A stretch of 49,373 nucleotides of DNA from a virus, in IMG/VR virus record IMGVR_UViG_3300032213_002060, positions 1 to 49,373 of that record; one strand, given 5' to 3'. How positions within the stretch are numbered: position 1 is the stretch's first letter; every line of letters starts with the position of its first letter. The notes under the pieces are model-generated. The model was not told the origin of the DNA. It saw nothing but the letters and a program-made list of their open reading frames with translations, and ran no database searches. Shown here in pieces: positions 36,916 to 49,373 of the stretch. A program made the position numbers and the translations under genes.

Positions 36916-38300
36916 TATTTATTCTTAAAATTAAAATTAAAAAATTTATCTACAATTGTTTTAATATATGCAATTTGTTCTTCTGTAATAACTGGACTAC
37001 AACCTAAAAAGAATGTATCGGTTGTAACTTTTCTGGCTATTGGAAAATCATTGATTACTTGTTCAGGATCCATTAATCCTTGATATGCTGGCTGTAACAT
37101 AATATTACCAGCAAAATATGGCCGTGTTTGTATTTTGTGTGATTCTAAAAATTGACAAAATTCGGCTCTCGTAAATCCAGCACCATCTTTTACCGTTAAT
37201 GCTACAGCAAACCAATCTGGATCTGCGTGTTCTGTTGCTTTTGGTAAATAAAAGAATTGTTCATATGATTTAAAAATATCAACAATTAATGCGTGATTTT
37301 TTCTTCGAATTTGACCTATTTCTTCTAATTTTTGCATTTGCACAAATGCCATAGCAGCTTGCATTTCTATTGGTTTTAAATTATAACCAATTTCTTCGTA
37401 AACATATTTATGGTCGAATACGTCATTTGGCAGAGCTGGTAACCAATTATTAAATCGTTGATTACACATTCCGCATTCTAACTGATTTTGTTTTCCTACA
37501 CAATAACAGCCTCGACCCCAATCTCTAAAACTTCTTAAAATTCGCTCCGTTTCTAAATCATTACATGCAACAAAACCGCCTTCACCCATAGTAATATGAT
37601 GTGCTGGATAAAATGAACAACTGGCCATTTTGCCATATGTTCCTAATGGCTGATCTTTGTATTTTGAACCTAATGCATCGCAACAATCTTCTAATAAAAT
37701 TAAATTGTATTTTTCAACCAATTCCATTAAACGATCCATATTAGGAGGATTTCCTAAAACATGTGCAAATGTTATAACTTTAATATCTGGGTCTTCTTTT
37801 AATTTTTGTTCTACTTGATCTAAGTCTAAATTCAAAGATTCTAATTCGATATCTACAAATACTGGAGTAAATCCTAACTGCAAAATAGGATTAATTGTTG
37901 TAGGAAATCCAGCAATTGGAGTTAATACTTTAGTTCCTTTCGGTAAATTCATTCCTCGTTTTGAGGTTAATGCTGCTAACATTAATAAATTTGCACTAGA
38001 TCCACTGTTCGTTAAAATTCCTAATTTTTTACCTAATCGTTTAGGAAATCTGGATTCGAAACGTATACCTTCTTGTCCTAAAACTAACCATCCTCCTAGT
38101 AACGTTTTAACTGCTGCTACATATTCTTTTTCATCAAAATAATTTCCAGCATATTGAACTAAATCTTTACCGGCTTCCCACGTTTTAGATGAATCTTTAT
38201 GTTTGATGAACTTTTCTACTAGATTTAAAATATCTTCTACTTTTAAATCTTTAGAATCTATGAATTCTCGTTCTAAATCGGTATACGTTTTATTACTCAT
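36915..38300 (-). CDS. RfbH-type nucleotide-sugar 3-dehydrase (DegT fold, His in place of Lys)
   Basis: A 461-residue member of the DegT/DnrJ family of RfbH type. The PLP-binding lysine of aminotransferases is replaced by His in SFYPAHHITMGEGG (residues 234-235), the hallmark of 3-dehydrases E1 and ColD. Four cysteines at 265, 267, 276 and 279 (CYCVGKQNQLECGMC) occupy the place of the iron-sulfur ligands of RfbH/E1. It would remove the C3 hydroxyl from a 4-keto-6-deoxyhexose. It precedes gmd with a one-base overlap and overlaps the upstream glycosyltransferase by four bases. The nucleotide (CDP or GDP) is uncertain. Confidence 0.85.
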   Translation of the reverse strand: MSNKTYTDLEREFIDSKDLKVEDILNLVEKFIKHKDSSKTWEAGKDLVQYAGNYFDEKEYVAAVKTLLGGWLVLGQEGIRFESRFPKRLGKKLGILTNSGSSANLLMLAALTSKRGMNLPKGTKVLTPIAGFPTTINPILQLGFTPVFVDIELESLNLDLDQVEQKLKEDPDIKVITFAHVLGNPPNMDRLMELVEKYNLILLEDCCDALGSKYKDQPLGTYGKMASCSFYPAHHITMGEGGFVACNDLETERILRSFRDWGRGCYCVGKQNQLECGMCNQRFNNWLPALPNDVFDHKYVYEEIGYNLKPIEMQAAMAFVQMQKLEEIGQIRRKNHALIVDIFKSYEQFFYLPKATEHADPDWFAVALTVKDGAGFTRAEFCQFLESHKIQTRPYFAGNIMLQPAYQGLMDPEQVINDFPIARKVTTDTFFLGCSPVITEEQIAYIKTIVDKFFNFNFKNK

Positions 38301-38944
38301 AATGTATCGTAAAAATTATTTTGTTTTTCTTGTCTATCAATCGTTTTCGGATGATATAGTGAGTAATCTTCTTCCATGGGAAGATGTGTATACTGTTTAT
38401 ATCCATCTAGTACCTCATGCACTTTATTTTTCCAGATTATACTAGGAGTATTTTTAAAAATGCGCCATTGGTAGTCAGGCCAGTTAACCCAACCTTCGCT
38501 ATTCACATTCCATCTCCATTTTTGAATATGTGTATCAGTTAGCCCTGCGACAGTATTAACTCTTGGTACAAGATACACTTCTATCTCAGGATTTTGTTCT
38601 AAGATGAATGGTAACGATTCAATAATTGGAGTGCATGGAATTTCATCGGCGTCGATTTGAAAAATATAATCACCTGTACATTGTTCTTTCAAATGATTCT
38701 TAAATGATGCAAAATCGCCTCTTAATGGATTAAATATAACTCGGCAATTTCCTTGTTCATTGTGTTTCATGATATACTGCCAAACCAGTCTTTTATCTTG
38801 GGGCATATCGTTAAGATCATCTAATGATAAATCCATTTGAACTACGATTTCGTCTTGCGATCGTTTATGTTCTAATAAAAAGATTAATAATCGTTGAATT
38901 TCAATAAATTCATTACAAACGGTTACAGCATAACTTATTTTCAT
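38297..38944 (-). CDS. Family 2-like glycosyltransferase
   Basis: A 215-residue GT-A enzyme of the LPS-core type: SYAVTVCNEFIEIQRLLIFL, then YIFQIDADEIPCTPIIESLP containing D-x-D, and QWRIFKNTPSIIWKNKVHEV. The last pattern is shared with WaaE/KdtX-like beta-glucosyltransferases. It overlaps the RfbH-type gene by four bases. Confidence 0.82.
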   Translation of the reverse strand: MKISYAVTVCNEFIEIQRLLIFLLEHKRSQDEIVVQMDLSLDDLNDMPQDKRLVWQYIMKHNEQGNCRVIFNPLRGDFASFKNHLKEQCTGDYIFQIDADEIPCTPIIESLPFILEQNPEIEVYLVPRVNTVAGLTDTHIQKWRWNVNSEGWVNWPDYQWRIFKNTPSIIWKNKVHEVLDGYKQYTHLPMEEDYSLYHPKTIDRQEKQNNFYDTL

Positions 38945-38967
38945 AATATATTATATGTTATTTTAAA

Positions 38968-40233
38968 TTATTTTCCAACCTTTTGTAATTTAGGCAATTG
39001 TACTTGTTTTAACTGCGGTAACTTAAGTTCTACAGATTTTGGTATACTAGATACCCCGGCGCTTACAATTTGTAAAACGTTTTTATAGATATCAACAACG
39101 GCGCTTTTAGTAAAAGTACTATTAACAAAATATCGTTGACGTTTTGATATATCGCACCATTTTTTATAATTCTTTTCTACTTCTTTTAACATTTTACCAG
39201 CATAACCATAATCTGGCGTAAACCATTTTGCGTCGCCTATTAACCATTCATTTTGCGCAGAAGGATGTATTGGGGTTAATACACCAGGTACAGCACAAAT
39301 AAAATCTTTCTTTAAAAAATCTGCCTGACCCGAGTAATGCGGAGCAATAATTGGTTTTCCCGTAGTTGAAAATTCTAACAAAGGACGTCCGAATCCTTCT
39401 GCTTTGGTAAATGATACCATTGCTTTTATTTTAGGATGATTATACAATGCATTCATTTCTTCATCGGATAATTCTCCATGTAATATGTATACGCTAGGTA
39501 ATTTTGCGTTACCAAACATTTCACGAATTTGATTGATTTTATTTTCAATTTCCATTCGATCCATAATACTATATGTAGCACCGCTAGTTTTCATAACCAG
39601 TGCAGGTGCAGATTTTGTATTTTTATAAGTTTCAAAGAATCGATGAACTAATCCACTTAAATTTTTACGATCTTCTCCCAATTGCCCCGTTAACCAATGC
39701 CCAACCGTTAAAAATGCAAATGATTCGTTAATTTCATTAAGTTGCGTAATTTCTGTAGTTACGTTCTTTGTTGAATATATATCTTCATTAAAATATTCAG
39801 GAATTACTTGCAAGTTAGTAGTTATAGTTAAATTATGTTTCTTTGCAGTGTTTTCGAATACTTGTTTAGTAAACGTACTAGGAACTATAGTAACTTGCAT
39901 TCGATTAATACATTCAATCCATTCTGGTTGGCAAATGTCTCCTTCAGTTCCCGCCGTTACTCCTACATTAAATTTTCCTACTGCTTGAAATTCATTTGGA
40001 ACTGAAATTTGAACCCATATATCTGGTTGTTCGGTTAATGGCAATGGTATAATTCTTAATTGCCAATCCGTAGATATTGGATATGTCATTGGTGTATGTC
40101 CCCATGGAAGTGAAATTAATTTAACATCCCAATCAGAATCACCATGTTCTATAAAATTTGATATAATTTCACGTGCGTGGTGTCCGTAACCACTTTGTGT
40201 CGCTACTGGCGACGCTATAACTACTTTTCTCAT
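38968..40233 (-). CDS. Family 4/1-like glycosyltransferase with C-terminal LPxL repeats
   Basis: A 421-residue GT-B protein. The N-terminus has VVIASPVATQSGYGHHAREI. The donor domain contains FLTVGHWLTGQLGEDRKNLS, YILHGELSDEEMNALYNHPK and SFTKAEGFGRPLLEFSTTGK (E-x7-E). The last 25 residues are a repeat-like tail (ELKLPQLKQVQLPKLQKVGK), unlike a catalytic fold. The same peptide unit LPKLQK begins the neighbouring upstream gene's protein. It overlaps that gene by one base. Confidence 0.82.
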   Translation of the reverse strand: MRKVVIASPVATQSGYGHHAREIISNFIEHGDSDWDVKLISLPWGHTPMTYPISTDWQLRIIPLPLTEQPDIWVQISVPNEFQAVGKFNVGVTAGTEGDICQPEWIECINRMQVTIVPSTFTKQVFENTAKKHNLTITTNLQVIPEYFNEDIYSTKNVTTEITQLNEINESFAFLTVGHWLTGQLGEDRKNLSGLVHRFFETYKNTKSAPALVMKTSGATYSIMDRMEIENKINQIREMFGNAKLPSVYILHGELSDEEMNALYNHPKIKAMVSFTKAEGFGRPLLEFSTTGKPIIAPHYSGQADFLKKDFICAVPGVLTPIHPSAQNEWLIGDAKWFTPDYGYAGKMLKEVEKNYKKWCDISKRQRYFVNSTFTKSAVVDIYKNVLQIVSAGVSSIPKSVELKLPQLKQVQLPKLQKVGK

Positions 40234-41723
40234 TATGCTACTATTCCTGTTTGTTCATATTTAGGAGTTTCTACTTTATTTAAAGTATACATTGGTCTTC
40301 GTTGTTTATGTGCATTAAAAAGATAATTAAACATCTCAATCATCTTATTACCCATTGATTCTGCAGTTAAGCCGTTATCAAAACAAAAACTACGGCCCAT
40401 CATACCATATACCATTCGCTGTGCTTCATCCATTTCATACCAATACATAATAGCATCAGCAACATCTTCAAAATTAGCTCGATCATCAAAAATATATGGA
40501 GTCATTGGTGATCCTTGCAATGATCTATTACTAGGAAATACCGGCTTAGCCCATTGTCCATGATTTTTATATTTTCCGGTATGATTGGTAGAAAATTCTC
40601 CGTCAAATCGAATCCATTCTCCAGTTTCATCAGTAAACCCACATTGATCTTGCAATCCACCCGTTACATTATTAATAATAGGAGTTCCTGAAAGCATTGC
40701 TTCGGTCGAACTCAACCCCCAACCTTCATTAGATCCAATATTCACTACAACATCAGCTACATTATACATTAAATTTAAATCTGCAGCAGTCATCTTTTGT
40801 TCTGAAAAAATAACTTTACAATTCGGAGCTAATATATTTGCGACTGCCCGTAGATCCGTACCATTCTCATCAACTGCTTGTGTATGCATTAATAATCCAA
40901 CACGTGACTGTTGTTCTGCAGGTAGTTTGTCTACAAAGTGTTTAAATGCTAATACTAAATCTCCTGGTTGCTTTCTTCGAATATTTCTATTATTCCACAT
41001 AACAACAAAATCAATTCCATTTTTTGTTTTGATTTGTTCATGCATCTTTTTATATTCTGCACTATCTTTAGAAACTGGAATAAAAGTATTATGATTTAAT
41101 CCATGAGGCACAAACCCCGTAACTATTTCATTCCATTTAATATCTGCAGGTACTGAATCCCCATCATCGTAATCTACAACACCAAAACCATTCTGTTTTA
41201 GCACTTCTCTGTGAATATTATCAGATTGCTTACTAATTCCCATAATCATATCACATGAGCCGTAAAAAGGCGCGTTCCACATTGGATATGGAAGATCATC
41301 CCAAATAGAATAATATGTAATAGGAATATTAAATGTTGTTTTGATTTCGTGTTCTAGTGCATATAACCAAGTCCAATATCTAGGATCTGTAAAATGCAGA
41401 ATTGCATCAGGTTGTTCTTGATTTAAAATTGCAAATAGTATATTTCTATCACCATAACCATTCCACGGAATTAATTTTACGGATGCATCCTCAATTCCTG
41501 TTTCTCGACTAATTTCCTGAGATAAATCAAAAGCCTTTCCAGCATCTGGATGATTGATTGCTGCACCTAATTGTACCCAATCAAATTCTTTAACGGTATT
41601 AAAAATAATTTCTTTACTAATTGTGCCAATTCCTGATGGTAAACGAAAATCATCAGACAACAAAAGAATTTTTTTCTTTGTAGGCTTATTCGGGTCGATT
41701 TTTTGTAACTTCGGTAACTCCAT
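40233..41723 (-). CDS. Family 4/1-like glycosyltransferase, first gene of glycan operon
   Basis: A 496-residue GT-B protein with an N-terminal tag MELPKLQKIDPNKPTKKKIL before the first Rossmann strand. VMWNNRNIRRKQPGDLVLAF and VADVVVNIGSNEGWGLSSTE followed by AMLSGTPII contain the donor-binding E-x7-E of family 4. It is preceded by an ATATTTATA box and AAGGA. All 16 genes that follow in the cluster are on the same strand without further boxes, so transcription of the whole operon probably starts here. The donor sugar is unknown. Confidence 0.85.
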   Translation of the reverse strand: MELPKLQKIDPNKPTKKKILLLSDDFRLPSGIGTISKEIIFNTVKEFDWVQLGAAINHPDAGKAFDLSQEISRETGIEDASVKLIPWNGYGDRNILFAILNQEQPDAILHFTDPRYWTWLYALEHEIKTTFNIPITYYSIWDDLPYPMWNAPFYGSCDMIMGISKQSDNIHREVLKQNGFGVVDYDDGDSVPADIKWNEIVTGFVPHGLNHNTFIPVSKDSAEYKKMHEQIKTKNGIDFVVMWNNRNIRRKQPGDLVLAFKHFVDKLPAEQQSRVGLLMHTQAVDENGTDLRAVANILAPNCKVIFSEQKMTAADLNLMYNVADVVVNIGSNEGWGLSSTEAMLSGTPIINNVTGGLQDQCGFTDETGEWIRFDGEFSTNHTGKYKNHGQWAKPVFPSNRSLQGSPMTPYIFDDRANFEDVADAIMYWYEMDEAQRMVYGMMGRSFCFDNGLTAESMGNKMIEMFNYLFNAHKQRRPMYTLNKVETPKYEQTGIVA

Positions 41724-44299: not shown

Positions 44300-44529
44300 T
44301 ATTTTTTTACTTTAATTGGTTGAAATTCTTCTGGAATAGAACCGCAATCATCACATCGAAAAACTGGTATTGGAACCATTGTATCTTTATCACCACCCGT
44401 TAGAAATTTCGATACTTTATTAATTGCCATTACTTGTCGAAAATATAATCCTTCACATTCTTTGCATTGTATTGGCTGCATATCGTTTGGGCCAATATTA
44501 ACATTTAATTTACTCATAATCAAATTCAC
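44299..44529 (-). CDS. Zinc-ribbon small protein
   Basis: A protein of up to 76 residues with two CxxC knuckles (IQCKECEGLYFRQV and FRCDDCGSIPEEF), consistent with one zinc ribbon. The start at 44517 (MSKLNVNIGPND) is preferred over 44529, as it follows the homing endonuclease with little overlap (the latter ends at 44510). Zinc-ribbon proteins of this size in T4-like phages sit next to replication genes and may contact DNA or RNA polymerase. Function unknown. Confidence 0.7.
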   Translation of the reverse strand: MNLIMSKLNVNIGPNDMQPIQCKECEGLYFRQVMAINKVSKFLTGGDKDTMVPIPVFRCDDCGSIPEEFQPIKVKK

Positions 44530-45196
44530 TTATTCGTATAAACTTACATTTTAAATATTCTTCAATTTCTTTTTGTCGTTTTATATCGTTTTGACGCAAT
44601 TTTCCATGTTTAAAATGATGTCTTTCGTCATATTCAATAACTACATTTTGTTCTTTATCATATCCATCAACATAATATCCTAGATGTTCAATAAAATATT
44701 CGCCTCCATTTTCTGCATGTTGGAAATTATAACCATTTTTATATCCATATTCATCGATTCGGTTACATGCAATCTTATTATAACCGGGATAACATGGTTT
44801 TTTTGTATTTAATGATTTTAATCTACGTAATCTTTGTTTTCGTTTAGTTTCATCTGAATGTGTATAACCATAATGTGGATTATTTATACCAGTTACATCA
44901 ATTTTTGAAAAATATCGGCCTTTATTTGTTACTTTTTGTTTAATAGTTGGAATTTGTGAAATATTTTCATACTGGCCGTTACTAATAGTTAATGCTACTA
45001 ATTTCATTTTACATGCAGGTTTGCAAGTTTTTCCATTATCCGATGTAAAAAATAACGTATCACATATAACGCAATTTTTTTGTACCAATTTTCTACATTT
45101 ACTACATTTAAATGTTGTATGGTTGATTTTATCAAATCTAGCTTTATACTTAAATTCAACTTCCATGTTACAATTAATACATTTAACTATATACAT
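44510..45196 (-). CDS. Zinc-finger homing endonuclease, EDxHD/Vsr-like type
   Basis: A 228-residue protein with N-terminal Cys knuckles (YIVKCINCNMEVEF, TTFKCSKCRKLVQKNCVICD), a NUMOD3-like stretch (INNPHYGYTHSDETKRKQRL) and a C-terminal nuclease domain EHLGYYVDGYDKEQNVVIEY followed by DERHHFKHGKLRQNDIKRQ and CKFIRISEFD. The E-x-D-x-x-H pattern is that of the I-Bth0305I/Vsr-like group. It sits between the clamp loader gene and the zinc-ribbon gene as a free-standing mobile endonuclease. It has its own box and AAAGGA. Confidence 0.82.
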   Translation of the reverse strand: MYIVKCINCNMEVEFKYKARFDKINHTTFKCSKCRKLVQKNCVICDTLFFTSDNGKTCKPACKMKLVALTISNGQYENISQIPTIKQKVTNKGRYFSKIDVTGINNPHYGYTHSDETKRKQRLRRLKSLNTKKPCYPGYNKIACNRIDEYGYKNGYNFQHAENGGEYFIEHLGYYVDGYDKEQNVVIEYDERHHFKHGKLRQNDIKRQKEIEEYLKCKFIRISEFDYE

Positions 45197-45249: not shown

Positions 45250-46176
45250 TTATAATTCTGCTAAAATTTTTGTAAACATTGCCATTATATTAATCTCCTG
45301 ATCAACTACATGTGCTCCTTGATACTGTGCTTCTGCAATAATTAATATGCATGGTGCTACATGTCCGTGAGCAAACTCATCTAAATTATCATATAAAAAT
45401 GTATACAATGCCGTAAAATCTCTTACTTTACTATCTGCAATAATTTGACGAATCTGATTAAACGCTGACTTTTTATCTTTAAGATTTCGAAGTACATCTA
45501 ATATTTCAGTCATATAATTTGCTTGAATTGCACTTGCTTTATCTAGTTGCAAATTGCCGTTAACAACAGATGCTTGAGCTGCATTAATAGCACGTCGGAT
45601 ATCCGGATATGATGAATTAATAATTGCTGCTACATCCTTAATATCATAGCTAACATTCTTTTCTTCTAATACTGATACTAATCGTTTTGCTACATCGGTT
45701 TTATTTGGAGGAGTGATAGCAAATGTCTGACAACGAGATTGTATAGGATCAATAATCTTTTCAACATAGTTACATGTTAAGATGAACCTTGTCGTTTTGC
45801 TATAAGTCTCCATTAAATTGCGAAGAGCAGCTTGAGCATTTGGTGTCAAATAATCTGCTTCATCTAAAATAATAATTTTCCATCGACGGAATCCTACTGT
45901 TGATGCATAACGCTTAATTTTATCTCGAACCGCATCAACAGAGTTTTCATCAGATGCATTTATATACATGAGGTCGGCATCCACTGATCCAGCAATGATT
46001 TTTGCCAATGTAGTCTTACCGGTACCTGCCGTCCCATAAAATAACAAGTGAGGAACATCCCCATTGTTAATAAAAATACGAACTTTCTCAATGATGTGTT
46101 CATTACCGATATATCCTTCTAATGTATCCGGACGAAATGATTCGACCCAAAGTGTGTTTTCTGTTGTATTAAACAT
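45250..46176 (-). CDS. 44: Clamp-loader ATPase (T4 gp44-like, RFC small-subunit type)
   Basis: A 308-residue AAA+ protein: Walker A GTAGTGKT at 48-55, Walker B IIILDEAD at 101-108, and the SRC motif (IDPIQSRCQTF) at 147-149 with the arginine finger. It hydrolyses ATP to open the sliding clamp and load it. Length and motifs match gp44 and archaeal or eukaryotic RFC small subunits. It follows dUTPase with a seven-base gap and precedes a homing endonuclease insertion. Confidence 0.95.
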   Translation of the reverse strand: MFNTTENTLWVESFRPDTLEGYIGNEHIIEKVRIFINNGDVPHLLFYGTAGTGKTTLAKIIAGSVDADLMYINASDENSVDAVRDKIKRYASTVGFRRWKIIILDEADYLTPNAQAALRNLMETYSKTTRFILTCNYVEKIIDPIQSRCQTFAITPPNKTDVAKRLVSVLEEKNVSYDIKDVAAIINSSYPDIRRAINAAQASVVNGNLQLDKASAIQANYMTEILDVLRNLKDKKSAFNQIRQIIADSKVRDFTALYTFLYDNLDEFAHGHVAPCILIIAEAQYQGAHVVDQEINIMAMFTKILAEL

Positions 46177-46183
46177 AAATTAT

Positions 46184-46612
46184 TTATTTTCCTCCTGTTG
46201 ATCCAAATCCTTTATCTCCTCGTTTCGTACCAGTTAATGATTCTGTCGGTAACCATTCGATATGTTCTACTTTGCATAAAACCAATTGAGCGATACGATC
46301 TCCTTTTGAAAATTGTACAGTTCTAGGACCATGATTAATTAAAATTACTCCAATTTCTCCACGATAGTCAGCATCAATTGTTCCCGGCGTATTTAAAACC
46401 GTAACGCCATGTTTTATTGCTAATCCACTTCTAGGTCTTACTTGTATCTCATAACCATGTGGAATTTCTACAAACAATCCGGTTGGTACTAATGCTCGGC
46501 CGGTCGGATCAATTGAAAAATCTTCTGAGCAACGAACATCTAATCCGGCACTTCCCGGAGTTTCGTATTCGGGAAGTGCATTAGTTGATTTATTTACTAC
46601 GTTAACTATCAT
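46184..46612 (-). CDS. dut: dUTP diphosphatase
   Basis: A trimeric-type dUTPase with all five motifs: [48 protein letters not shown] and [11 protein letters not shown]. It hydrolyses dUTP to dUMP, keeping uracil out of DNA and feeding thymidylate synthase at 3.6-4.9 kb. The frame is open to 46639, but the Met at 46612 gives the usual N-terminus ([14 protein letters not shown]) and lies just past the clamp gene's stop, so it is preferred. Confidence 0.94.
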
Positions 46613-46614
46613 AA

Positions 46615-47325
46615 TTAATTCTGTAACATTACTAACCAATATGTTGAATCAAAATCCGATCCAGAAAATTCAATACGAGCTAATCCATCTGGAGATACAT
46701 GAAGCGTACCAGAGTCTCCTCGATTTGCTACCAATACTTCTTTCAATTTATCAGCCGAAAAACATACTGGATCCATATCTTCTCCCGGAGTTGTTCCTAC
46801 TTCAAATGCAATATTGTCTGCATTTACGGTACTATAATTAATAATAAATCGAATTGTACCTCCTTTTACCTGTACTGCAAAATTCTTCGCATCTGGTAAT
46901 GCATTTTTTGCTTTGATAAATCTAGTTACAAATTCTTCATTAACTGGAATTTGAATTTGATAATTTGGTTCAGAATTAATTGATGGTACTGCTGGGATTA
47001 CTGTCGTGTCAGCTAACATAAATGTTGCTTCAGTATTACCTTCGCTAATCTTCATTGCATAATTCTTACCTGCAACATCTTTTACATCTATATTAATATT
47101 TTCACCTAATGCTGACAACATTTTTATTAGAGCTCCGGTATGATTGATTCCTAATTCACCTTTCATGAAAGGAGTCGTTTTCCATTGAATCTTACCTACA
47201 ACTGTTTGATCCATATCTATCAATTCACAATTAATGCCCTCAGCATTTTCTTTCAATTTAACAGCTTCACAATTACCTGCTAAATAGTAACGATTAATTA
47301 ATGATTGTAATTTACTTTTTTCCAT
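46615..47325 (-). CDS. 45: Sliding clamp (T4 gp45-like)
   Basis: A 236-residue protein with the two-domain arrangement of a gp45/PCNA-type clamp: [20 protein letters not shown] in domain 1, [20 protein letters not shown] between the domains and [20 protein letters not shown] in domain 2, with the C-terminal [12 protein letters not shown]. It encircles DNA and tethers the polymerase; T4 gp45 also activates late transcription. It is directly followed by dUTPase and clamp-loader genes in T4 order. It lies 11 bases after the transglycosylase-like gene. Confidence 0.85.
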
Positions 47326-47336
47326 TTTTATCCTGA

Positions 47337-48599
47337 TTAAAATTTAAAGAATTTATTGAAGTTTTCAGCATCCGTAGTAGATATACTATCACCGCCGAAT
47401 TTTTTATATGTTTTAATGTATTTTTCGTAGATATGCGGAGCTGCATCTGGATCTGCAAACATTTCATGTAATGATAATATCACATCATACAAATCCTTAG
47501 GTACTACCGTTTCTAACAATTCAACGTGACTATCAACTAGTTGATTTATCTCTTCTGCAGCATTTACATATAAATGCGTGTTATGCACAACCATTCTAGG
47601 CATAGCTTCTTGAGAATATCTATCTAATCCTGTATCCGTTTTTCCTCCTAAGTATTCATATGTAAAGTCGGCACACGCAGGACATCCTAATTGACATGGT
47701 ACTGTTTGCGTTAAATCGATGCCAGTTACATCACCAGTTTTACCTTGTCTGATATGTGATTTGCGACGATACTCTGCATTTTTAGGAAAATATAATTCAG
47801 AGAATGTCTGTGTCTTAAAATTCGTTGAATGAAGATATGTTCCAAATACTGGATATTGTCCTGGGGACGATGAATCCGTTGTTACTGTAATTCTACTTCC
47901 ATAATGTTTATTCATCAATTTTTGCATTGTTGCTAAAATGAAGAAATCGGAAATTTTACTAATTCCTAACAAGTGAAGATATTCATTACGAGTTTTTTCA
48001 AATTCTCCTTCTTTAAGCATTAATGATAATGCAAACATGAAGTCAACTAATTTTTGTGGACCACCAATTGCCCATCCTTGAAAATCAAAATGCTTAAATT
48101 TATGATACCACCAAGTATATTCATCAGCATTAGATCCTTGCAACATATTCAAAAACTTAGTTTTACCACTTTGATGTTTTTCAAACCAAGCAAAATTATC
48201 ATAACTGATATCTGCACATGTTGCAAATTGGTTTCTATATTTAGTTTTAGGTGGAATATCTAAATTTGCAGCAACATCACTATTTGCCTCTAACCAATGA
48301 AAAATCTTTTCACGAAGTTCATTGCTATATGGCAATGCTCCGGTTGCAATCTGATATCCTCCGGAATCTCCAAATACTAATACATCTTTTTCTAATCCTA
48401 ATTGATCTCGAAAATCCATTTTTTTGTAATGGTGTCCTGCCGTTATCAAAAAGTATGGGTGTCTCCATTCTTTTGGATATCGAGAGTCGAAGAACTTTAC
48501 CGGATCTCCATTTGAAAACTTCATATCTTTCTTAAAAGCAGATACCATCGAACCTGCTGATAATGATGGAAAGTATATGAATCTTTTAGCTTCGCTCAT
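47337..48599 (-). CDS. tRNA-guanine-transglycosylase-like protein, probable DNA 7-deazaguanine transglycosylase (DpdA-like)
   Basis: A 420-residue protein of the TGT fold. It shows VFGDSGGYQIATG (Asp78, the general-base region), SDVAANLDIPPKTKY, FLNMLQGS, GWAIGGPQK, HLLGIS and TTDSSSPGQ with Asp242 in the nucleophile position, in the same order as bacterial TGT. Three cysteines at 302, 306 and 309 (CQLGCPAC) may bind zinc. Phage DpdA enzymes of this fold exchange guanine in DNA for a 7-deazaguanine base; the clamp genes directly downstream fit a DNA substrate. tRNA cannot be excluded. The start overlaps the upstream glycosyltransferase by 14 bases. No preQ0 synthesis genes are in the window. 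Confidence 0.78.
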   Translation of the reverse strand: MSEAKRFIYFPSLSAGSMVSAFKKDMKFSNGDPVKFFDSRYPKEWRHPYFLITAGHHYKKMDFRDQLGLEKDVLVFGDSGGYQIATGALPYSNELREKIFHWLEANSDVAANLDIPPKTKYRNQFATCADISYDNFAWFEKHQSGKTKFLNMLQGSNADEYTWWYHKFKHFDFQGWAIGGPQKLVDFMFALSLMLKEGEFEKTRNEYLHLLGISKISDFFILATMQKLMNKHYGSRITVTTDSSSPGQYPVFGTYLHSTNFKTQTFSELYFPKNAEYRRKSHIRQGKTGDVTGIDLTQTVPCQLGCPACADFTYEYLGGKTDTGLDRYSQEAMPRMVVHNTHLYVNAAEEINQLVDSHVELLETVVPKDLYDVILSLHEMFADPDAAPHIYEKYIKTYKKFGGDSISTTDAENFNKFFKF

Positions 48600-49373
48600 T
48601 GTATTCCTTTAGTTTATTAATTAAATTTGTTGATGAAAAAAAGTTCTCATGCAATTCCGTAACCAAGTTTTTAATATTAGTCGTTATATCAGCATTTTCA
48701 TATTCCAATATTGCTCGAACTGCATCATCTATACTATTCGCACGTTTAAACATTGGTGAATACATTTCAGTATATGATAATCTATCTGGAACAATTGGAC
48801 ATGCCCCAGCACAAGCTGATTCATACATTGATATGCCTAATGTTTCTTGATCTGCAAATGATACTGCAAATTTAGCTCGTTGAAGCAATTTATGATATTC
48901 TGGTTTAGTTAAATTCATTTCCATAGCTACACAGAATTGATAGTGTGCTAATTCAAGACGTGCAGCTAATTCTTGAAATAAATCTAATCGTTTCTCTGGA
49001 GCAATTCGATGTGGAAATACTATAATATTTTCTTTTTCGTTCCAAGATTTTGAATTAATCATATCTTTTGTATATTCCATAGGCCAACCTGTTCTACTCC
49101 AACGCAAATCAAATAAAATATCATATGTTTCATTAATCATATTGCGATGTGCTGTCGTAGCTACCCAATTATGACTATAACATTCTATCATAGAATTCTC
49201 AGCATGACGAATCCATGGTTTATCTCCTATGAGACGACCTAAAAAGTCAAACGGGTCATATGAACCCGCGTGCCAAAGTCCATGCATTACAACGGGAATA
49301 TTTAGAAGTTCGCTCATATATTTTACATTGATAACGCCTGGATGCCATGCATCTGTAAAAATAATATGGTCTC
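48586..49373 (-). CDS. Partial glycosyltransferase (GT4-like), possibly DNA-base modifying
   Basis: The reading frame is open through the right edge of the window: before the internal Met at 49317 it reads DHIIFTDAWHPGVINVKY. The true start therefore lies outside and only the C-terminal 262 residues are seen. The visible part shows NIIVFPHRIAPEKRLDLFQE and SFADQETLGISMYESACAGA (E-x7-E), the donor domain of GT4 enzymes. Its stop overlaps the start of the transglycosylase-like gene by 14 bases, so the two are translated together. A role in glycosylating a modified DNA base is an attractive inference; a role in a surface glycan is the alternative. Confidence 0.78.
   Translation of the reverse strand, partial: DHIIFTDAWHPGVINVKYMSELLNIPVVMHGLWHAGSYDPFDFLGRLIGDKPWIRHAENSMIECYSHNWVATTAHRNMINETYDILFDLRWSRTGWPMEYTKDMINSKSWNEKENIIVFPHRIAPEKRLDLFQELAARLELAHYQFCVAMEMNLTKPEYHKLLQRAKFAVSFADQETLGISMYESACAGACPIVPDRLSYTEMYSPMFKRANSIDDAVRAILEYENADITTNIKNLVTELHENFFSSTNLINKLKEYNERS

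Follow-up and report, generated by a model that had tools for sequence, protein, structure and literature searches.

A DpdA2-Like Transglycosylase and a QTMAN-Related Glycosyltransferase in a Conserved Phage Gene Module: a Candidate Route to Glycosylated 7-Deazaguanine in DNA

The viral record IMGVR_UViG_3300032213_002060 (49,373 bases, the whole of which is called the window here) carries at one end a gene for a TGT-fold protein that overlaps a gene for a glycosyltransferase (GT). This arrangement raises the question of whether the phage replaces guanine in its DNA with a 7-deazaguanine and goes on to glycosylate the inserted base. The initial annotation of the locus had proposed base exchange followed by sugar addition, and we found this proposal to be well supported by genomics and chemically unproven. 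We consider it likely (probability of approximately 0.72) that a DpdA2-type exchange of guanine for 7-deazaguanine, followed by glycosylation, takes place in phage DNA, the chemistry itself being inferred.

The overlapping gene pair and the TGT-fold protein

45250..46176, minus strand: clamp loader, gp44-like AAA+ ATPase (phrog_168, 2.5e-85; context)
46184..46639, minus strand: dUTPase (PF00692, 2.3e-34; context)
46615..47325, minus strand: DNA polymerase sliding clamp (phrog_223, 1.7e-7; context, outside the modification chemistry)
47337..48599, minus strand: DpdA2-like TGT-fold putative DNA guanine transglycosylase, 420 aa (profile, model, and motifs)
48586..48599, minus strand: 14-bp overlap, ATGAGCGAAGCTAA, with the dpdA start codon and the GT stop codon
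48586..49371, minus strand: QTMAN-related GT-B glycosyltransferase, C-terminal 261 aa (PF00534, QTMAN profile, and conserved motifs)

The TGT-fold gene (dpdA) had been described as overlapping a GT4-like gene by 14 bases, with the clamp and dUTPase genes coming directly after the pair, and this description held. The 14 bp common to the two ORFs (ATGAGCGAAGCTAA) hold the start codon of the one and the stop codon of the other, a ribosome-site-like AAAGGA lies 5 bases 5' of the dpdA ATG, and the clamp, dUTPase, and clamp loader genes, identified by PHROG or Pfam matches, come after dpdA. The GT ORF is open at the window end, where only the C-terminal 261 of about 345 aa are present; the full-length protein has 342 to 346 aa in relatives, its N-terminal part lying beyond the window end. 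An overlapping or abutting GT-dpdA pair was kept in 70/70 close relatives, with an ORF overlap of 1 to 20 bp. Besides, comparison with one close relative gave 94 silent and 10 amino-acid-changing codons in dpdA, and 56 silent and 43 amino-acid-changing codons in the GT gene. Because the pair is kept in all 70 relatives and the codon changes are mostly silent, we regard it as real and not as a product of chance. The presence of these genes and the homologies of their products are shown by computation.

Two other parts of the window were noted. A 228-aa ORF with a Cys-rich N terminus (44510-45196) has no counterpart at that place in one relative, L004, and is possibly a homing endonuclease insertion. 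Three more glycosyltransferase genes, two of GT4 type and one of GT2 type, lie at 38297-41723.

Assignment of the 420-aa protein to the TGTs needed profiles: it had no match in Pfam and one weak match in PHROGs, to a family of unknown function, and neither these nor a single-sequence PDB search sufficed. An alignment profile of 11 relatives matched solved TGTs in the PDB over the catalytic and zinc regions (best E value, 5.7e-5). An AlphaFold (AF2) model of the protein (pLDDT, 77; pTM, 0.81) superposed on human TGT with a Z score of 22.0 and an rmsd of 3.7 A over 301 residues; its best structural matches were tRNA TGTs, one of them RNA bound.

All main TGT sequence blocks had been said to be kept, and this held by motif position: GDSGGYQ (77-83), LDIPP (113-117), QG (154-155), GG (179-180), HLLG (209-212), TDSSSPG (241-247), CX3CX2C (302-309), and HN (339-340). 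Indeed, D78, D114, Q154, G155, D242, and H339 were identical in 38/38 diverse TGT relatives, so that conservation is shown for the catalytic Asp residues (nucleophile and general base), the base-binding Asp, and the QG motif; D242 is presumed to be the nucleophile. C302, C306, and C309, together with H339, are presumed to form the zinc site, in a region where model confidence is low. These three Cys residues were kept in all seven window-clade rows shown and were not kept in the two bacterial TGT relatives shown.

The comparison with DpdA suggested by the initial annotation was positive in that Foldseek with the model listed the solved DNA preQ0 insertase DpdA (7ui4) among its matches (E value, 1.5e-6). 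Its choice of the phage 9g enzyme required correction: the likeness is to DpdA2, and the TGT family profile listed no match to the DpdA of phage 9g. The same profile matched ACP17 gp123 at 4.9e-55 and KVP40.0122 at 1.6e-20, the latter of which we take, from its position beside folE, to be the orthologue of DpdA2 of Vibrio phage nt-1. That phage, the source of the DpdA2 name, has DNA containing dPreQ0, dG+, and dADG (PMC6884629). Given the TGT fold and residues, the KVP40.0122 match, and the deazaguanines of nt-1 DNA, we infer that the protein is related to DpdA2 and likely works as DpdA2 does, base exchange in DNA being inferred.

The glycosyltransferase and its relation to QTMAN

The GT has a Pfam Glycos_transf_1 GT4-type domain (PF00534, 1.3e-7, over the cut-off), and its EX7E motif is conserved (E269 in 23/23 relatives and E261 in 22/23), which together identify it as a retaining GT4-type GT-B enzyme. 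A PHRxxPEK motif was also kept in 23 relatives.

We collected 21 QTMAN-family (PF12038) proteins from prokaryote genomes for comparison. The GT profile matched all 21 of them (31.8 to 48.0 bits; E values, 1e-12 to 1e-7), whereas the two other GT4 proteins of the same phage scored only 0.2 and -1 bits; the L004 relatives of the window's two other GT4-type proteins are unlike the dpdA-linked GT. A reverse search with a QTMAN profile gave 150 ORFs; those listed, 30 in number, were all GT ORFs or partial ones at the GT position. A QTMAN profile matched the window GT ORF at 3.8e-11, and hhalign of the GT against QTMAN gave 98.4% with an E value of 4.4e-15. The relation to QTMAN, which mannosylates queuosine in tRNA-Asp (PMC12518689), is thus shown by computation. 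It is the C-terminal (donor) half that shows the likeness most clearly. The PF12038 N-terminal domain gave no match in the full-length L004 GT at E values up to 1, and we therefore describe the GT as related to QTMAN and not as a member of its family. The best solved structure for the GT profile reached only 21.5 bits, and no T4 glucosyltransferase structures were among its matches.

The search for the GT returned at least 600 stretches. The family is almost purely viral, with at least 593 viral stretches against 7 loci in an 84,980-genome collection. In L080 and like relatives, the place of the GT is taken by a family member that has diverged strongly and is about 24% identical.

Relatives of the GT were also observed in other settings. 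In Xanthomonas phage PhiXhv-12 (L214:5744-8978), a relative has a GlmS-type aminotransferase and a deacetylase as neighbors, and none of the nine surrounding proteins tested matched a TGT, FolE, or QueE; aminosugar modification of another target is possible there. Two bacterial loci, in Devosia (L177:8081-11044) and Pseudooctadecabacter (L178:9401-12557), combine the GT with a TGT relative and a Vut_1/YhhQ-like transporter, which resembles queuosine precursor transporters and matched just under the curated cut-off. In L178, a C5 DNA methyltransferase lies approximately 4 kb upstream. These loci may be islands modifying host DNA or may be prophage remnants.

The conserved module and the deazaguanine synthesis genes

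The linkage of the two genes is shown well beyond the window. The GT gene directly adjoined dpdA in 70/70 window-like loci with upstream sequence. A sample drawn by GT, comprising 49 loci in which the GT gene had no less than 5.5 kb of sequence to either side, contained DpdA in 48, p118 (a small protein described below) in 47, QueE in 46, FolE in 41, QueD in 23, and QueC in none; the lone exception for DpdA is Phosso, in which dpdA lies elsewhere in the genome. When distant loci were drawn by DpdA instead, those with enough flank had the GT in 17/17, p118 in 16/17, and FolE in 16/17. Being drawn from related contigs, these counts do not stand for independent events.

Gene order varies among the lineages carrying the module, the two bacterial loci included. 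It is p118-GT-dpdA in the window clade, dpdA-GT-p118 with QueE downstream in Paride, TGT-GT-p118-QueE in ACP17, FolE, GT, TGT, p118, QueE in Xanthomonas phage X1, and p118-GT-FolE-QueE in Phosso, with dpdA about 170 kb away. PA5oct, in the same phage group as Paride, carries the module as well. In several lineages, genes for DNA polymerase, clamp, and primase surround the module. Because linkage is kept despite rearranged gene order, we infer a shared function. Some DpdA relatives have no GT nearby (L255-L257, L260, L261, and Vibrio phage 2.275.O), and the GT is for this reason best seen as an add-on.

An alternative is that the DNA contains simple 7-deazaguanine, and that the GT acts on a surface glycan or virion protein and is a neighbor of dpdA by chance or for regulation. 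In its favor, the phage encodes other GT genes (38297-41723), and GT clusters in phages are generally taken to serve surface glycans (PMC7824862). However, the linkage persists where gene order and genome backbone differ, the GT is like QTMAN and unlike the phage's own GT4 proteins, and it is almost purely viral. We thus regard this alternative as unlikely and retain a joint role of the two enzymes.

To the pair named in the initial annotation we add p118 as a third conserved protein of the module. It has about 118 aa, and its gene, which is outside the window, adjoins or lies near the GT gene in most loci. An AF2 model (pLDDT, 92) had its top Foldseek matches with Escherichia coli QueD (E value, 4.8e-7), and profile comparison with QueD gave 26% and an E value of 1.4e-4. 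The QueD fold of p118, as predicted by the model, is decided by structure and not by sequence comparison. H17, H36, and H38 were invariant in a 22-sequence alignment and fit the QueD zinc site; the same alignment had no Cys, the catalytic residue of QueD, just before the HxH motif. p118 is likely a QueD paralogue with another role, and what that role is remains open.

Other small proteins recur near the GT. Homologues of p141 (L004:7824-8249) form a small family of unknown function with 119 matches in the loci retrieved, most often encoded directly upstream of p118 and GT. In a second clade, the surroundings of the GT often include a phosphoribosyltransferase (L131:8140-8640, with homologues in 36 loci), which could possibly recycle guanine freed by base exchange. 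In the same clade, approximately 1.5 kb separates the GT gene from that of a conserved protein (L170:12075-12551, with homologues in 36 loci) that has about 158 aa and had no Pfam match.

A search of the genome for folE, queD, queE, and queC had been suggested as a check. None of the four is in the window, which ends first. The search was positive in relatives for folE, queD, and queE, which lie about 7 to 9 kb upstream of the pair. The order in L004 and L024, which differ in a few further small genes, is folE, queD, a small gene, queE, a groES-like gene, DNA polymerase, and p141, followed by a nucleotidyltransferase gene, p118, GT, dpdA, clamp, dUTPase, and clamp loader. Among 12 relative contigs, folE and queD were each found in 9, with QueE in the same cluster, and match positions suggest that the other 3 end before the folE site.

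For queC, the search was negative. No QueC (PF06508) was over the cut-off in 12 GT-bearing records, including the 287-kb Paride, the 156-kb ACP17, the 469-kb Phosso, and a 159-kb relative, and none was found in the window's relatives searched; G016 gave a weak QueC-like match below the cut-off. QueF was absent from the same 12 records, and QueA was absent from 10 GT-bearing records. Vibrio phage 2.275.O has both QueC and QueF, with no GT seen beside dpdA. From the absence of QueC in the records searched, we infer that the base inserted is 7-carboxy-7-deazaguanine itself or, with the help of host QueC, preQ0.

Three observations touch on these synthesis genes. A PAPS-reductase-type PP-loop candidate for a QueC substitute was rejected, being present in X1, weak in Paride, and absent in the other phage records. 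The phage QueD of L004 (L004:1470-1946) and its relatives keep C27, H31, and the DH motif and have, by eye, RQWR and HGY where canonical zinc histidines are expected. In Stenotrophomonas phage YB07 (L223:7878-13401), an inositol-1-phosphate synthase gene lies between those for FolE and for QueC, a DpdA2-like TGT, and QueE, a hint of possibly another deazaguanine decoration in Menderavirus.

The main rival to our reading is a tRNA version of the same chemistry, in which 7-deazaguanine is inserted by the TGT into tRNA of the phage or host and glycosylated there by the GT, so that translation is altered during infection. That DNA is the substrate is an inference: the closest cellular relatives of the GT act on tRNA (QTMAN being a tRNA enzyme; PMC12518689), as do the enzymes that the TGT matches best in structure, the RNA-bound one among them. 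Against this rival, the TGT profile connects the protein with KVP40.0122, which is presumed to be a DpdA2, and an enzyme of this type is present in a phage with 7-deazaguanines in its DNA; QueF and QueA are absent from the 12 and 10 GT-bearing records, respectively; and in several lineages the surrounding genes serve DNA replication. The tRNA version is thus unlikely in our judgment, and we keep to DNA as the presumed substrate.

Proposed chemistry and comparison with known systems

In the route that we propose, FolE, QueD, and QueE, encoded upstream in the relatives, would make 7-carboxy-7-deazaguanine, which host QueC would perhaps take on to preQ0. The DpdA2-like enzyme would swap guanine in phage DNA for the deazaguanine by way of a covalent intermediate on D242, and the QTMAN-related GT would use a nucleotide-sugar to glycosylate the 7-substituent. 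A base of this bulk would then probably shield the DNA from host nucleases. The DNA substrate, the base exchange activity, the order of the steps, the acceptor atom, the sugar, and the protection are all inferred, there being no biochemical or mass-spectrometric data; the earlier claim of protection against restriction accordingly keeps the standing of an inference.

A third alternative places the sugar first: it would be added to the free 7-deazaguanine base or nucleotide, and the TGT would insert the finished glycosylated base. TGT-type enzymes exchange free bases, that of eukaryotes accepts the bulky queuine (general background; PMC12518689), and the tight gene overlap would fit channeling between TGT and GT. 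However, QTMAN and the T4 glucosyltransferases work on bases already incorporated into the polymer, and we hold this order to be very unlikely compared with exchange followed by glycosylation.

We refine the original proposal in that the acceptor may be carboxy-deazaguanine. This base, unlike queuosine, has no hydroxyl, and because of this the acceptor chemistry is uncertain, a point that counts against the main reading. A bolder reading is that the DpdA2-like enzyme and the GT place a sugar on 7-carboxy-7-deazaguanine, or on an amide or ester derived from it, with p118 performing a further step. The balance tips slightly against this reading; if true, it would add a DNA base class not known before.

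7-Deazaguanine in phage DNA is already known, and its glycosylation would be the new part. The initial annotation had held a transglycosylase-linked system to be new; we found none published, and glycosylated 7-deazaguanine in DNA was not found in the literature searched, although the search was limited and the GT may have been mentioned before. The jumbo phage PA5oct has been predicted to have a deazaguanine synthesis and incorporation system (PMC7824862), and the passages found in that paper do not link the glycosyltransferase to the system. Paride, PA5oct, ACP17, X1, and Phosso are cultured phages with the module, in which the proposal is directly testable. It gives a candidate function to a mostly unannotated glycosyltransferase family and, if true, could help to explain the nuclease resistance of such phages.

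Among known systems, the DpdA2 system of Vibrio phages nt-1 and KVP40 likewise has a TGT-fold enzyme with FolE, QueD, and QueE among replication genes. It differs in that KVP40 has QueC (KVP40.0124), which the module described here lacks in the whole records searched, whereas our module adds the GT and p118. The DpdA/Gat-QueC (dG+) system of phage 9g also exchanges bases in DNA with a TGT fold; the present module has no Gat-QueC, carries an extra GT, and had no 9g DpdA match listed.

With vertebrate QTMAN, the GT4-type tRNA-queuosine alpha-mannosyltransferase, the module has in common the logic of a transglycosylase followed by a glycosyltransferase on 7-deazaguanine. Unlike QTMAN, it is viral and presumed to act on DNA, the N-terminal acceptor half of its GT is without PF12038, and, since QueA is absent, it has no queuosine cyclopentenediol. 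If our reading is true, phages apply the logic of glycosylated queuosine, base exchange and then sugar, to DNA instead of tRNA. Finally, the T4 alpha- and beta-glucosyltransferases glycosylate a modified base, 5-hydroxymethylcytosine, as a presumed shield, as would be the case here, whereas the acceptor in our module would be a deazaguanine put into the polymer by base exchange. The product would thus be a purine counterpart to the glucosylated cytosine of T4 and, with the GT present in at least 600 stretches, probably a common one in aquatic phages.
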